From: Blastocladiella britannica
Lineage: Eukaryota; Blastocladiomycota; Blastocladiomycetes; Blastocladiales; Blastocladiaceae
DNA length: 32,602 nucleotides
Assembly: GCA_025349905.2 (NCBI GenBank)
Contig: MU624629.1
Span: 5,971-38,572, forward strand
Direction: 5' to 3'
The notes below the pieces were generated by a model. That model did not search any database and was not told the DNA's origin. It worked only from the letters and a program-made list of their open reading frames with translations. Shown piece after piece: positions 20,177 to 27,742 of this stretch; position 1 is the first letter of the stretch, and each line of letters begins with the position of its first letter. Made by a program: the position numbers and the translations under genes.

Positions 20177-20444
20177 GGGGTTTTGCCATAGCATATATCT
20201 ATTTATCGCCCGCTCATTTTTTCGCCTTGGGTATTACGGGGTGCGCGAAGCCTGTGAGCGTTGCTTGCGTGCTTGGTTGTTTTACGCGTTCTCACATAAA
20301 AAATACGATGTGAAATGATCGCCCTCTTTCGCATTTTCACATCTCCAGTTGTACTTTCGAACACTTGTTTACTTCACGGATCCACGCACGCAGGCACAGC
20401 ATCCACACGCGCGGTCGCCGAGCATTCAATTCAAAGATATAAAA

Positions 20445-22474
20445 ATGACCGTATCACGCACCCACGTAGCAGTCCTGCTTCTGAGCTGCGGCATGGTCTG
20501 GGGCAACTACCACTGCTACGACTTGCCCGCGGCGTTAGCCCTCCCGCTACGCGCGCACCTTCGATCCACGCCCGCCGTGTTCCAATGGCAACTCAATGCC
20601 ATGTACACCGCATACTCGCTGCCCAACCTCGTCTCCCCGCTCCTCGGCGGCCTATTAATCGACCGGCTCGGAACCGAGACCACCACCATCGCGTTTGCAG
20701 TGACGGTCGCGGTCGGTGCAACCCTGTTCTGGATCGGAACTGCAACGCGGCTGTTCCCTTTGATGATGGTAGGCCGAGTTTTGGCGGGACTGGGCGGCGA
20801 GTCGCTGGAAGTGGCCGGAACAACCGTCACAACCGAATGGTTCGTGGACGCAGGGTACTTATCGGCGGCGCTGGCGATCAACCTGTCGACGTCGCGGATC
20901 GCCGCCGCTCTGCAGGATATCGTGTCGCCGTGGCTGGCCACCGTGGTGGCTCCTCCATCGGTGGATGGCGATGACGGGTCGTGGGTCCGTGGGGCTCCAT
21001 TGCCGGCGCTCCTGGGCGTGGCCGTCAGCGTGGTCTCGGTCGCGGCCGCTGTCGCACTGATCCGGACTGACTCGGCGGCCGCACGGACGCGGGCTGGATT
21101 GCGGCCCGAGTCGCCGGCCGATGTGCCGCTGCTCGTGGACGACGATTTGGAGCCCAGCGCGCACGGTGACCGTCGGTATCAACAGAGTTCCAACCATCCG
21201 ACAGTCTCGCAAATGATTTCGCCGGTGCTGCTCCAGCGATCGCCCGTTGCGCCCGTTGCGTCCAATGCCGACGACGACGATGACAATGGGACCGTGAGTG
21301 GACTGAGTATGGCGCCCAGCTCGTCCAACCAAACCCTGGTCAGTCCTGTCGGGGGTACCCGAGCACTTCCCAAGGGCCATGTTATTGCTTCTCATGGCGA
21401 CAAACCAGCGATGGACCGCACAGCAACAACGACAACCGCCACGGCAGTGCACGCGTCATCGTCCGACGCTGCAAGTTTACCTGACCACGCCGCCACTGAC
21501 GACGATGCCACTGATCGGCCGCTGCTCTTGGGCCTCTCGGCCTCGTTCTGGGCACTCTGCGCATTAACCGTGCTGCTGTACGGATCGACCATGCCGTTCA
21601 TTCACATTTCGTCCGACGGTACGACGAAAAACACCTTTTCAAGTTCTCTGGCACGTCAAATTAAGATACATATACATCAGTGATCCAGTCCAAATGGTAC
21701 TCAGGCGATGCTGCGCGCGCCGGCGCCGCCATGGCGATCCCAGACCTGACGTGCGCCGTCCTAACCCCTCTCCTCGGCCTCCTAGTCGACCGCACGCGCG
21801 TCCCACCGGCCCTGTTCTTGCCCTTGGCATCGGTGCTGCTAGTAGCAGGCCACGCGATGGTCTTTGTATTCCCCCCACTCTCATCCCCATGGCCCGCACT
21901 CCTGGTCATTGGCACGGGAAGCGCCGCGTTCGCCGCCACGTTGTGGCCCGTGGTGCCGCTGGTCGTCGCCGACCGCCAATTGGCCACCGCATACGGCGCC
22001 ATGACCGTGGCGCTGAACGTGGCGCTGGCGGGCGTGCCGTTGATGGTGGCTGCCGCGACCGGCGCTGCAGCTACTACCAGCGATCCGTGGAAGTACACGG
22101 GCTGGCTGTTCCTGAGTATGGCCGCGGCCGCGGGCGTCGCCGCAACGGGTATGCTGGCGTGGGACGCACGGTACGGGTCGGGGATTTTGGTGGGTCGCCG
22201 TCGCCACGCAAAGGGAACGGGGACACTTGGGTACCGCGACGAGCGGGTGGCGATCCTGGGGTCTGAGGTTCGTGCGGACGGCGCTGTGGGACGGTACGAC
22301 GACAGCCATCCGTTTGGCGGGCTTGGCGGAGGTGGTACCGATCACGGTGGCGGCGATGTTGGTGGAGGAGGCGGCGCCGGCCCTGCGCATCGGAGGCCAA
22401 GGGTCCGGTCGGGAACGGCCGGTGACGATCACGAGTGGAGCTTGGGGGATCCGGACGCGGCAGCTGACGTTTGA
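20445..22474 (+). CDS. MFSD1: MFSD1-like major facilitator transporter
   Basis: Exons 20445-21618 and 21681-22474, with a 62-bp intron, give 655 residues. The first half has six hydrophobic spans with MFSD1 signatures: GNYHCYDLPAAL near the first helix, LVSPLLGGLLIDRLG, and GRVLAGLGGESLEVAGTTVT. The second half carries CAVLTPLLGLLVDR, FAATLWPVVPLVVADRQLAT and AYGAMTVALN, all typical of MFSD1. Animal MFSD1 is a lysosomal dipeptide exporter; a vacuolar or lysosomal role here is inferred. Between the two halves lies a hydrophilic loop of about 150 residues (about 207-359), rich in Ser, Asp and Thr, far longer than usual. The C-terminal tail is Gly/Arg-rich. The splice restores the segment PFIHISSDVIQSKW at the start of helix 7. 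Confidence 0.85.
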
Positions 22475-22670: not shown

Positions 22671-25600
22671 ATGGTAAAAATACGCCAAGCGCGATCAAGC
22701 GCCACTTGGCCACTGTTGCTGATCCTTCTTGCCCTGTCGGCGGCGACTAGTTCGTTGATCTGGTTCTTGTTGTTGTGCAGTAAAAGGATCACTAACCCAT
22801 AAATAACAGGTATTCAAGCTCGATCGACAGTGCGCGTATTGCTCGCTGGATGTCCGTTTCGTCCTTCCTCGTTGGATCGCCTCTTATGGCTTCATTTTGA
22901 TTGTAACAATTTCTCTCATACAAGTTATGTTTTGCAGTACCATCAACCATCAACACTGCAAGTGAAGCAGCGTACCTGTACTCGCTTGCGAATGTGTGGT
23001 CTGCCACCAGCGGCATTGATCTCACGTTCCAGTGGAATGTACGCACTCAGCAATCGAGCTCTGGAAAATCAAACACTCACATTATAAACAGACAATTGCC
23101 GGAGTGGCCAACGACACAGCGTCCAACTTTGGCTGGGACACGCTCACCGTCTTCAACAATGCCAACAAGGCGGCCACGGCCGGATCGGCCGACATTGTCA
23201 TGTTTGACGGCGTGTACACGGGCATGATGGCGCCGTTGCTCAAGAACCTGTCGCCGCTGATCCCTGCCGCGTCTGTCGCGGCACACATGCCACAGGCGGT
23301 GGCAGCGTCTACGGTCGCGGGAAAGCTGTACGCGTTGCCCATGACCCTGGACGTTGCGCTACTGTATTACCGCATGGACGTACTGCAGCGGAATGGGTTT
23401 ACGGCGCCGCCGACCACCGCACGTTTTCACATTTTTTTTTACATTTGAATGGATCCCCTCACACAATGCCGTAAAAAAAAAAATAGTGGGACGCCATGGG
23501 ATCCATGCTCTCGACGATTGTATCCGCCGAAAAGGCGCGCAACCCAGCCATCATGGGTTTCCTCGGCCAGTTGCGCGGGTACGAGGGCTTAACGGCGTTC
23601 ACGACCGAGTGGCTCGCGTCCGTCGCCAACACCACCTGGCTCACCGACACCTTGGGCTTGCCGACGGGTCCCGCCGGTGCCAAGAAACAAGTGGCGCTGG
23701 ATGCAATGACGCGGCTTCGTACCTGGATCACGAGCGGAATCATTGGCGCGCCTGCCATCATGTGCGACGAGCAGTACTCGGCCGATTTCTGGGGCCAGGG
23801 GAACGCAGTGGTCATGCGGCACTGGAACTGGATGCCGGCGTACTCGGGATCGGTCTCGTTCCCGTGGGTGGCCGCACCGTACCCGGGATCCATCAGCGCG
23901 CTCGGTGGATTGGTGGCGGGAATTGTGGATAGTACGACGGACGCGGCGGCGGCGGCGGCCGCGTTGCAGTTCTTGGCTTCGGCGCAGATGCAGACGGCGC
24001 GCGCGGTCAACAGCGGGATGATTCCCACGATCCCGGCGCTTTGGTCCGGTAAGTTTTTGCCTTTCCTTTTCGTTATGCCGTTCTAATAACAGCTTGATCC
24101 AAAGATCCAACCGTATGCAATGCGATCCAGATCTGCGATAAAATCAAGGCCATGAACGTATGTACCTCACTCCTTTGGGACAAAATACAGGAAAGAAACT
24201 CATCGCAATAGAAGTGTAGTTTGTAGCACGACCGTCGGTGCCGGCCGGGTCCCAGTACCTGACCATCTCCTCCTTGATTTGGTCCAACTGGGTCAACATG
24301 CTCAACGGACAGCAAACGCCCGCGGTGGCCCTGGATTCGGTCAACTTTGGAATCGGCCAGACCCTCGGAATCGACCTTCTCGGCCCGCCAACCAACATTG
24401 ACCGCACCAACCCGATCGCGCTGTTTATCTTTGTGGTGTGCGCGATCGGCCTGGTTCTGACATTCCTGGTGACGATGTACATTGGCGCAGGCCGCGCAGG
24501 CCTGCCACTCCCGGTCCGCGTCAAGTCGTCGATCCCGCCCGCGCTGCAATGCACGCTCCTGGCCGGCATCGCATTCGCGTTCATGGTCCCCATGGTGTAC
24601 ACTGGCATCCCCACCGCCGTCCAGTGCTCGCTGCAGCCGTGGCTGGCGACGCTGGCGGTGGTATTGCCGGTAGCCGCGGTGGCCGCGTACCAGCAAGCGG
24701 TGTTGATCACCTGGCGCAACCCGTACGCGCGCACCGTCGCCGAGTTTGCGCTCATCCCACTTCGCCCGTTGTTGGTCTTGGTAGCGGCCGCCACGGCGGT
24801 CGCAGTACTCCCAGTATTGGTATGGACGGCCGCGGCGCCGCGCGTTCCCATCACCGTCAATCTCGGCGCGTCGCGGTACATTGCATGCGAGTCGGCGGCG
24901 TCGCCCACGTTCGAACTGGTGTTGTCGGCTCTGACGTACGCGATCTGCGCAATCGCGGTCGCGGTGGCGCTGGTGTCGGCGTACTCCTCGCGGCTCGCGG
25001 TGCGCCGGTTTCCGGAAGTCAAGAGCACTGCGTTTGCACTGTCTAATGCGGCGTTGCTTGGCGTCGTTGCGGTATGTGTCTCCTTTTTTAATTATGATCA
25101 TTGAACTCACTGATTTCATTTTCAGCTCCCACTCAGCGGGTACACGGCCCTAGGCCAGTCGCTGCAATACCTGATCCTGAGTCTCGGGATCGTGATCTCG
25201 GTGTGGACCATGCTCGGCGCGCTGTGCATTCCGACGGTCATGGCGGCCTTGCACCAGAAACGCCGGGGCAATACCAAGGGCGACAGTTCCGCGTCCCGCT
25301 CCAATAACAACAACAAGAACTCTGACAACCCGTCATCGTCCCCGAGCCACGCGACCCGGTCGGCGACCGAGTCCAAGGCACCCAGGGCCAGTCGGCAAGG
25401 GTCCATCAGCAAGACATCGGCTGCTGTTGCCGGAGCACGCACCGGTAATACTGGCGGTGTGAGCGGAAGCACGGGCGGAATCGCGCTGGAGCGCGAGGGG
25501 ATCGTCGGGTACCGGTCGTCTCGGTCGCGGTGGTGGAAGTGGGCGGCGCGGTGGCGCGGCGCACGCATGATTGTGTTTCCTGCACAGGGGATCGTGGTAT

Positions 25601-26216
25601 TTGAGCCGGTGGACGCGGTCCGTTCCCTTTTCTTTGAAACACTCAACGTGTACTTACAACTGTGGATCTTGTATAGATGGACAGCACCGACATGGGCGAC
25701 GTGATCGGCTTAGACGAAATCGCGTCCGTTGCAGTCCTCAATGCATCTGGCATCCCCACTCCCACTCCGACGGATCCCTCCTCCGACTCACCCGACTCAC
25801 CCACATCCCCCGCGGCCCTCACTGGCACCGAGTCCGCCACCCCGACCGTGCATGAGGTGAAGGTCGTGATTACCATCAAGAATCTGCCGCTCGAGTACGA
25901 GATCATGGCCCCCTCGCGCGCCGAGGCATTGCAGTGGGAGGCCACGTTGCGTGCGGCGGCAGCGTCGTCGGTGTCCATGAGTTCGGTACCGTTGGCAGGA
26001 TCGGCAGCGCAGCCGCCCATGTTGCAATTAGGCGGGAAAGATGATCGCAAACGCAAGTTGGCGTCGGCGACCGCGTCGGTGATTGGCACCGCGACTGTTT
26101 CGCCGCCACAGCCGCCGCCGAGCATTCCGGTCGGTATGGTCATGGTTAATAGCGCGAGTTTTGGGACGGATGCGCTGGGGCGCCGGGTCAGTGTGGTGGT
26201 GGATGACGGCGTGTAA
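22671..26216 (+). CDS. Chimeric receptor: sugar-binding protein ectodomain, class C GPCR core, PH-like tail
   Basis: Nine exons: 22671-22749, 22810-22851, 22938-23038, 23092-23418, 23487-24048, 24105-24157, 24220-25071, 25126-25617 and 25677-26216 (1015 residues). Residues 1-27 are a signal peptide (PLLLILLALSAATS). Residues about 33-440 match bacterial family-1 solute-binding proteins of the trehalose/maltose class: LYALPMTLDVALLYYRMDVL, APPTTWDAM, AVVMRHWNWMPAY, then PTIPALWSDPTVC and FVARPSVP. Residues about 452-710 form seven helices with class C GPCR features: Cys524 before helix 3 (VQCSLQPWLATLA), LITWRNPY after it, Cys611 in the second extracellular loop, FPEVKSTAFALSNAALLGVV in helix 6, and helix 7 ending IPTVMAAL. 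Residues about 804-930 resemble a PH domain: WWKWAARWRGARMIVF, a disordered Pro/Ser insert, then APSRAEALQWEATLRAA. Intron 4 uses GC-AG. The first two introns are the least certain. A surface sugar- or solute-sensing G-protein receptor is inferred. Confidence 0.82.
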
Positions 26217-26409: not shown

Positions 26410-27576
26410 TTACTGGGACGAAGAAGGCGAGGTAGGCTTGGCCGCGTCCACAAACTCGGCCTCCTCGGGCACAGCGATCCGCGGCCCGTCGCCGACCTGC
26501 ACCCACTTGACCACGACGCGGTCCGTAGCCGGGTTGGTCGCGGCGGCCGGGCGCGCGACCAGCGACCCGGCGGCGCGGATCGGCACCGACTGACCCGTTG
26601 ACGCGACGGCGTCAAACTCGATTTCCAAGTCGGACCGCACCACGGCCGCAGCATCCGATCCAGTCCGGACCGACGCAAACGACTCGGACGCGGACCGGAA
26701 CGGGCCAAACGAGACCGTGGGGGCGTTGATCGGCGTGGCGTCCGACAACGTGTAGTCATTGACGTCGACGGCCGCCAGGACTGCGCGGCGCACGGCCGCG
26801 TCTTGGACGACGAACGCGGTGGTGGCCGCCTGCAGCAAGTGCGGGCCCGACACAAGGCCGAGCGTCCGCGCGGCGTGCGTCGACCACCGCAGCACCCGCT
26901 GCATGTCGCCGTCGGTATTGCGGAACCCGCCGGCCGCCGACCGCAGCACCGCCGACACTGGGTCGGTGGCCGCGAACGGGCCCGAGCGCATCAGCGGCGA
27001 CCGCGCGGCCGCGGCGTTCCACGGCTTCACCTGAGGCGACCACGCGGCCGCATCCGACGGCCCGCCGTACGCCTGGTACCCGCCGTTGTTGGGCGGGAAC
27101 TGAATGTCGAGCCAGTTGCGCGTCAGCCGGTACGCGCCGAACCCGAGGCCGCCGCCCACGATCAGGAAAAACAGCGGCTTGGTCAGCGAGAACACCATCA
27201 CGCCGGCGCCGACCGACACGCCGACCTTGGCCAGGTTGCGCAGGCCGCGCTCGCGCGGGTAGCCGTGGCGGTACCGGTTGCCGTACCGGCCACCATAGTA
27301 AGACGAGTTGCAGTTGTTGGGATCCGAGGACGGCGATTGCGACGACGACGGTGACTGGTTGTACTCGTTAAAGTGGCGGTGGTGGTACGACCGCACAGCC
27401 GTCGTGACGGACGTGGTGGTGGCCGGCGCTGCAGCACGCAAAGTGGACGACTGCAGGTGCAGCGACGAAAAGGGCCGCAGCAGCACGACCGAGGCGGGAC
27501 GCGTCGCGGTCGCGCTGGCAGTGGCCGACACCAGAGCGGCGCGGAGGGGAGTACGGGAGGCAAGAGTGGAAAGCAT
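26410..27576 (-). CDS. Unknown mitochondrial membrane protein
   Basis: A single open frame of 388 residues, ATG 27576 to TAA 26412. I do not recognise the family. The first 60 residues are rich in Arg, Ser, Ala and Thr with no acidic residue (MLSTLASRTPLRAALVSATA), a strong mitochondrial presequence pattern, and VRSYHHRHF could follow the cleavage site. Residues about 115-150 are hydrophobic and glycine-rich with a central Lys-Pro (VMVFSLTKPLFFLIVGGGLG), a possible two-span hairpin. The C-terminal part, about 185-375, looks globular, with beta strands carrying alternating hydrophobics (TVSFGPFRSASESFASVRTG, RVVVKWVQVG). This suggests an inner-membrane protein with a soluble domain on one side. 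It lies 166 bp downstream of the Cdc11-like gene on the same strand. Confidence 0.75.
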   Translation of the reverse strand: MLSTLASRTPLRAALVSATASATATRPASVVLLRPFSSLHLQSSTLRAAAPATTTSVTTAVRSYHHRHFNEYNQSPSSSQSPSSDPNNCNSSYYGGRYGNRYRHGYPRERGLRNLAKVGVSVGAGVMVFSLTKPLFFLIVGGGLGFGAYRLTRNWLDIQFPPNNGGYQAYGGPSDAAAWSPQVKPWNAAAARSPLMRSGPFAATDPVSAVLRSAAGGFRNTDGDMQRVLRWSTHAARTLGLVSGPHLLQAATTAFVVQDAAVRRAVLAAVDVNDYTLSDATPINAPTVSFGPFRSASESFASVRTGSDAAAVVRSDLEIEFDAVASTGQSVPIRAAGSLVARPAAATNPATDRVVVKWVQVGDGPRIAVPEEAEFVDAAKPTSPSSSQ

Positions 27577-27742
27577 TTTTTTTTTGGGGAATTAACGCTG
27601 ATCCAACGAAGGAGAAACGAGGACGCGTCGCGTCTTATTAGGGTCGTCGACTCGTTGTCCCGACGGGATCGACCAAATGACTGGTAGGAATGGATTTTGA
27701 TTTTAAGTTTCGCAAGTTTACGTGGCAGTCCCGGCGGCGGGC

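Follow-up and report, generated by a model that had tools for sequence, protein, structure and literature searches.

Gene structure

The window examined here is a 32,602-nucleotide stretch of contig C90 in the 15.26-Mb assembly of the zoosporic fungus Blastocladiella britannica (Blastocladiomycota), and the gene under study occupies its positions 22671-26216 on the forward strand. Its predicted product joins a bacterial-type solute-binding ectodomain to the seven-helix core of a class C G-protein-coupled receptor (GPCR) and ends in a cytoplasmic tail. Enumeration of splice sites exactly reproduced the uninterrupted spliced frame of a preliminary description of this DNA: nine exons (22671-22749, 22810-22851, 22938-23038, 23092-23418, 23487-24048, 24105-24157, 24220-25071, 25126-25617 and 25677-26216) encoding exactly 1015 amino acids, with every motif quoted at the time in place (YALPMTLDVALLYYRMD, PPTTWDAM, MRxW at residues 293-296, and PTIPALWSDPTVC). 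The structure is ordinary, the eight introns measuring 53-86 nt. All have GT-AG ends except intron 4 (23419-23486, 68 nt), a GC-AG intron falling between PPTT and WDAM; a GT-AG splice is possible at the same site in the paralogue on contig C275, and the deposited protein P0002 has that junction. Exon 1 (22671-22749) supplies the start codon and residues 1-26, the core of a probable signal peptide. The same N-terminus is present in the deposited model P0001, and the signal peptide claimed earlier corresponds to a hydropathy peak at residues 10-30.

The fusion point lies within exon 7 (24220-25071), whose uninterrupted frame encodes residues 389-672. According to the reading frame, the Pfam matches and the phmmer alignment, this exon carries both the end of the binding protein, where residues 389-423 align with a Thermus protein up to residue 387 of the latter, and transmembrane helices (TM) 1 to 6. 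Because these parts share one exon, the fusion of head and core does not depend on splicing. In the paralogue on contig C265 a single open frame extends from mid-binding domain as far as TM6; the deposited protein P0003 splices out a short in-frame piece of this frame and leaves the join untouched. The same join appears in the deposited models of four further species. We accordingly give almost no credence to a gene-prediction artefact that merged two adjacent genes, and with the join inside one exon we consider it ruled out at the sequence level.

Sugar-binding ectodomain

The ectodomain comprises approximately residues 27-430 (22810-24345, introns included; exons 2-6 and the start of exon 7). 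Pfam matches SBP_bac_8 to residues 96-368 (4.6e-11; 43.5 bits against a cut-off of 27), and the best solved relative found with phmmer is the alpha-glycoside-binding protein of Thermus thermophilus (TtGBP, entry 6jaz; 2e-37, residues 101-423). A fold search, effective for residues 27-433 of the model, bore out the type II solute-binding fold, and an NCBIfam scan returned sugar-binding protein matches only, all far under cut-off. The earlier assignment to family-1 solute-binding proteins holds for the class of protein; the Pfam family matched is SBP_bac_8, and SBP_bac_1 is also matched in relatives. Neither ANF_receptor nor the nine-cysteine domain was found in the window protein by a Pfam scan up to E 1, and no cysteine-rich spacer was matched in the same scan.

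Besides TtGBP, represented by 6jaz and other entries, the trehalose/maltose-binding protein TMBP of Thermococcus (1eu8) resembles the ectodomain in fold and in several aligned contact residues. Both are free binding proteins of ABC importers, unlike the fused head described here. Taking the contact residues of TtGBP from the titles of PDB entries (R49 lies outside the alignment), we find Asp118 (D118A in 6jai) kept as Asp161 (23350-23352) and Arg356 (R356A in 6jal) kept as Arg392 (24229-24231). Asp113 (23206-23208) is aligned with Asp70 of TtGBP, a residue to which a role is ascribed. Trp296 of the MRxW motif (23823-23825) is the same in all nine fungal and all 29 bacterial-type rows of the alignment. 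At the position of Trp287 in TtGBP (W287A and W287F in 6jb0 and 6jaz) the window protein has Leu325 (23910-23912), and because of this replacement it may bind something other than trehalose or maltose. Sensing of a disaccharide, as initially proposed, is thus plausible from the fold and from most of the aligned contact residues, with the substitution at Leu325 leaving room for another ligand.

Seven-helix core

Residues 451-708 (24406-25233, with a 54-nt intron at 25072-25125) match the Pfam family 7tm_3 at 2.5e-14, with 54 bits against a cut-off of 33.5, so that both halves of the protein exceed the curated Pfam thresholds. The two cysteines that had been singled out as conserved are present, Cys524 (24625-24627) at the top of TM3 and Cys611 (24886-24888) in extracellular loop 2, and both are invariant in the seven aligned receptors. 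Profile, phmmer and fold matches taken together substantiate the proposal that this zoosporic fungus encodes, in one gene, a class C receptor whose ectodomain is of the ABC-importer trehalose/maltose type (type II).

An independently deposited model of the same gene, P0001 (BC828DRAFT_295751), is at odds with this conclusion. It is 752 amino acids long, agrees with our model in the first six introns and the last, and is identical to the window product over residues 1-496 and again from the tail to the end; between these it treats 24543-25385 as an 843-nt intron, which would delete TM2-TM7. In the database searched P0001 carries PF13416 alone, and the 7tm_3 label is absent because the model removes this stretch. 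Were P0001 correct, the product would be a solute-binding protein that spans the membrane once and has a cytoplasmic tail, and TM2-TM7 would be an intron or be skipped in one isoform. The removed piece is indeed in frame and has GC-AG ends, which also occur at intron 4, common to both models. It would, however, stand beside introns of only 53-86 nt in the long model, it contains most of the significant 7tm_3 match, and within it lies the normal 54-nt GT-AG intron. In the coding frame, 24543-25071 has a signal of 0.246 per codon, and none of 500 base shuffles exceeds -0.015; since the codon table was trained in part on other portions of the same gene, and since the antisense frame is also open with a signal of 0.13, this is supportive rather than decisive. 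The deposited proteins of Allomyces arbusculus (P0005) and A. javanicus (P0006) retain the homologous stretch with all seven helices in a full-length alignment at 34-35% identity. A structure prediction of P0001 made without an alignment reached a mean predicted local distance difference test score (pLDDT) of 36 and was not used. We judge from the sequence that the 843-nt intron is an annotation error and that the seven-helix part of the gene is real; a truncated single-pass product seems improbable.

Other observations weigh against a conventional receptor. The seven-helix part is divergent, scoring 54 bits with 7tm_3 against 147.5 for the Allomyces orthologue. The junction of TM3 and intracellular loop 2 (ICL2) reads AYQQAVLITW, both arginines of the Allomyces VRNFRIYRIF being replaced; the first basic residue there is Arg or Lys in five of six aligned relatives and Tyr in the window protein. 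The TM7 motif is PT, where Allomyces and Chytriomyces (three of the six relatives) have PK. The basic TM3/ICL2 residues and the PK motif are regarded as important and are unneeded for class C membership. Because the arginine pair at the end of TM3 and the lysine after the TM7 proline have been lost, the receptor may not itself couple to G proteins and may need a partner. Taken further, it could be a ligand-binding or regulatory subunit that lacks G-protein coupling of its own and works, like GABA-B1, only with another class C receptor. These substitutions and the divergence of the core favour such a role, as does the long branch of the window protein in the ectodomain tree described below, and a head-to-head arrangement of an SBP-type (solute-binding protein-type) and an ANF-type receptor gene on contig C138 would suit paired expression. 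That pair, however, does not include the window receptor, and the substituted residues may not be those that decide coupling in fungal class C receptors. We regard a dedicated subunit as a real but rather unlikely alternative to a receptor that signals in its own right.

The C138 genes themselves (at about 3650-4570 of L033, which is C138:4500-13500) are transcribed divergently with about 220 nt between candidate start codons, and are possibly a co-expressed pair. The 7tm_3 stretch of the ANF-type gene is below cut-off.

Cytoplasmic tail

A conserved block at approximately residues 795-925 (25492-25943, with an intron at 25618-25676) was delimited by alignment and by the predicted structure of the orthologue P0005. 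It is conserved in the Allomyces orthologues, and Trp923 near its end is invariant in seven of seven aligned receptors. Residues 745-866 of P0005 are predicted to form seven strands (745-755, 761-764, 770-775, 780-785, 795-798, 802-807 and 842-848) and a C-terminal helix (851-866), with pLDDT, taken by tens of residues, of 46-72, and of 26-32 in the loop 811-840. This predicted arrangement, of low to moderate confidence, has the topology of the pleckstrin homology (PH) domain.

The comparison can be extended to further class C receptors of this genome. Seven of their tail segments, alike by eye, were scanned; the head types of the receptors were also judged by eye, except that on C44, which Pfam confirmed. 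PF00169 (PH) is the best match in all seven and lies above cut-off in one (25.3 against 25.1 bits, 2.2e-5); in the remaining six the E-values lie between 3.2e-5 and 0.22, the former for a segment whose two exons were joined by eye. A profile of six of these tails had 26 matches in the PDB up to E 1, the best being TAPP1 (0.0011) and cytohesin 2 (0.0025); 24 of the 26 are, by name or by what is known of them, PH-domain proteins, and the other two are adenylation-domain proteins. On iteration the profile detected receptor tails at 12 of the 25 loci searched (five seeds and seven newly recruited), and reversed sequences gave none below 0.01 (best 0.36). A single open frame on contig C171 encodes a 7tm_3 core (2.4e-31) and, after it, a tail that matches PH weakly, at 0.12 within the long frame and at 0.0061 when scanned by itself. 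Among eight longer frames, one of them overlapping an earlier segment, PH was matched in two (0.00076 and 0.12) and in none of the other six. Non-SBP-headed class C receptors with a PH-like C-terminal segment are found at L039:2121-3809 on the minus strand and at L040, L045, L046, L048 and L050.

What could connect these domains with the tail of the window receptor? A profile-profile comparison of SBP-type with other tails gave a probability of 63% over 39 columns. Searched against the PDB up to E 10, the SBP-type profile had three matches, the gp52 adaptor (0.15), beta-spectrin (0.46) and ROCK2 (0.7), of which the latter two are presumably PH domains; these are too weak for use by themselves. 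Two results count against the assignment. Pfam matches no PH domain in the window protein, nor in any of the four SBP-type tails scanned alone, and the iterated profile recruits no SBP-type tail, with P0005 at E 0.21-0.77. The fold search effectively covered residues 27-433, short of the tail, and neither of its lists includes a class C receptor or a PH structure among the best 50 matches. The PH-like tail first proposed is therefore backed indirectly, through the paralogue tails and the predicted orthologue structure. From its position, Trp923, the profile match and the strand order predicted for P0005, the window tail is likely to have a PH fold.

Relatives in the genome and in other fungi

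Scanning the genome with 7tm_3 gave 47 matches, 40 of them above cut-off, on 34 contigs, counted per exon and not as genes; 14 prokaryotic control genomes yielded none. Four SBP-type paralogues of the window protein were identified, on C275, C265, C264 and C138. Their 7tm_3 scores are poor and also speak against the receptor assignment: 35.1 bits for one exon on C265, 29.1 on C264 and 24.5 on C138, with C275 not listed, against the cut-off of 33.5, and the whole deposited C265 protein reaches 26.3 bits. The cores of these paralogues nonetheless align with that of the window receptor.

The genome also holds class C receptors with other heads, as seen in six receptor-locus frames of nine scanned. 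ANF_receptor is matched on the minus strand of C138 and on C44, and weakly, below cut-off, on C53; the C68 head matches Peripla_BP_4, and that on C104 matches OpuAC just below cut-off. At L042:3608-4723 on the plus strand a Peripla_BP_4 head of the type I sugar-like kind is followed by a short teneurin-like EGF match and then by a seven-helix core.

Homologues were sought with residues 95-425 of the C275 protein, scoring the 7995 candidates that shared most words with it, so that absence from the resulting list is uninformative; two earlier searches had returned the query protein alone, perhaps through alanine-rich words. At least 37 proteins matched at E <= 0.001. Six are deposited fungal relatives: P0002 and P0003 of B. 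britannica, P0004 of B. emersonii, P0005 and P0006 of Allomyces, and P0007 of Chytriomyces hyalinus. The other 31 among the matches listed are solute-binding-protein-like, 30 by an SBP Pfam domain and P0021 by name, and many are labelled trehalose/maltose. The closest full-length relatives among the matches listed are the Allomyces proteins, 34-35% identical. PF00003 is annotated on P0003-P0007 and not on P0002; our own 7tm_3 scan, which covered five of these six, put P0004, P0005 and P0007 above cut-off and P0003 (26.3 bits) below it, with no match for P0002. The same architecture is thus present in deposited proteins of other zoosporic fungi, namely B. emersonii, two Allomyces species and Chytriomyces. 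At its C-terminal end P0007 has a ribosomal S10/plectin domain, which probably results from the annotated model running on into the following gene.

In an unrooted tree a branch with 100/100 support separates the nine fungal ectodomains from 29 bacterial-type proteins. The latter had been picked by similarity to one fungal query, and the proteins of gut fungi and of the rhizarian Plasmodiophora brassicae were left out. For this sample, and for the head only, the grouping of fungal heads from Chytriomyces to Blastocladiales is consistent with a single acquisition of the head.

Two features flank the receptor in the window. Directly upstream on the same strand (20319-22474) is an MFS-type transporter gene, of which the frame 20319-21680 matches MFS_1 (9.2e-15) and, below cut-off, Sugar_tr (0.0029), and the second frame has no Pfam match. 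Just downstream, on the minus strand, lies an open frame of 393 aa (26413-27591), for which Pfam gives no match at 0.01.

Discussion

The predicted protein is, in our probable though not assured reading, a membrane-bound class C receptor, of type I topology, in which a type II flytrap for a small solute precedes a 7tm_3 core and a probable PH tail. The flytrap would close when it binds a small carbohydrate, or a solute like it, outside the cell, and closure would be passed straight to TM1 through a short linker (about residues 430-450), with no cysteine-rich spacer between, in a GABA-B-like manner. The signal would then proceed via G proteins, engaged by the same protomer or by a dimer partner, and the tail, probably of PH fold, would anchor the receptor to phosphoinositides of the inner leaflet, or else to some partner protein. 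The flytrap of animal class C receptors is of type I (ANF_receptor), and in type II proteins the chain end packs and exits differently; with this different packing, the receptor must use another activation lever than animal class C receptors do. The metazoan GABA-B receptors nevertheless offer a parallel, as their Venus flytrap is joined to the 7tm_3 core without a cysteine-rich domain (PMC5168858).

Is the fusion of an importer-type head to a class C core new? The preliminary description had left room for this, and earlier reports overturn it: this fusion had already been published in 2012. In Allomyces macrogynus, also of the Blastocladiomycota, eight glutamate-family receptors combine SBP_bac_1 with 7tm_3, placing a type II solute-binding domain before the class C core as here, and a similar variety of head types was reported (PMC3251606, 2012). 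Class C GPCRs with SBP type II domains were described from transcriptomes of another fungal group, the anaerobic gut fungi, where zoospore guidance, the role tentatively proposed in the preliminary description, was also suggested for stand-alone SBPs (PMC5168858, 2016). Plasmodiophora brassicae has seven proteins in which bacterial SBP or periplasmic-binding-protein domains are combined with 7tm_3, the same head-core join, which the authors, unlike us, read as 'novel putative transporters' (PMC4815078, 2016). The text examined of these 2012-2016 papers reports no functional test of such fusions.

Could the window protein likewise transport the sugar that it binds? Apart from that published label, the MFS transporter gene just upstream might be taken to suggest so. 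The membrane part, however, matches 7tm_3, and the Pfam scan found no ABC-importer permease or ATPase domain. We know of no 7tm_3 protein that acts as a transporter, and consider this very improbable by comparison with a receptor.

With the head-core join already known, the PH-like tail is the part of the architecture for which we found no earlier description in the open-licence PubMed Central literature searched. The Allomyces report discusses N-terminal domains, and a search of its main text for C-terminal, C-termini, cytoplasmic and pleckstrin returned nothing (PMC3251606); a tail domain is likewise mentioned nowhere in the text found of the gut-fungal paper (PMC5168858). The tail would thus be a second unusual module beside the head.

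A broader reading, to which we give roughly even chances, is that zoosporic early-diverging fungi possess a large class C family in which interchangeable binding-protein heads (type I amino-acid-like, type I sugar-like, type II betaine-like and type II sugar-like) are set on one type of seven-helix core followed by a C-terminal PH domain, the window gene being a member with a type II sugar head. If this is true, each receptor carries its own membrane-lipid sensor or anchor. We know of no such built-in layout in animal class C receptors.

Surveys of annotated proteins may miss the window gene, its seven-helix core being hidden by the deposited annotation. The raw sequence and the corrected gene model confirm the existence of importer-type sugar-binding heads on class C receptors in zoosporic fungi. 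The resulting set of receptors offers a means of testing how class C cores are driven by type II flytraps, and what it is that zoospores taste.

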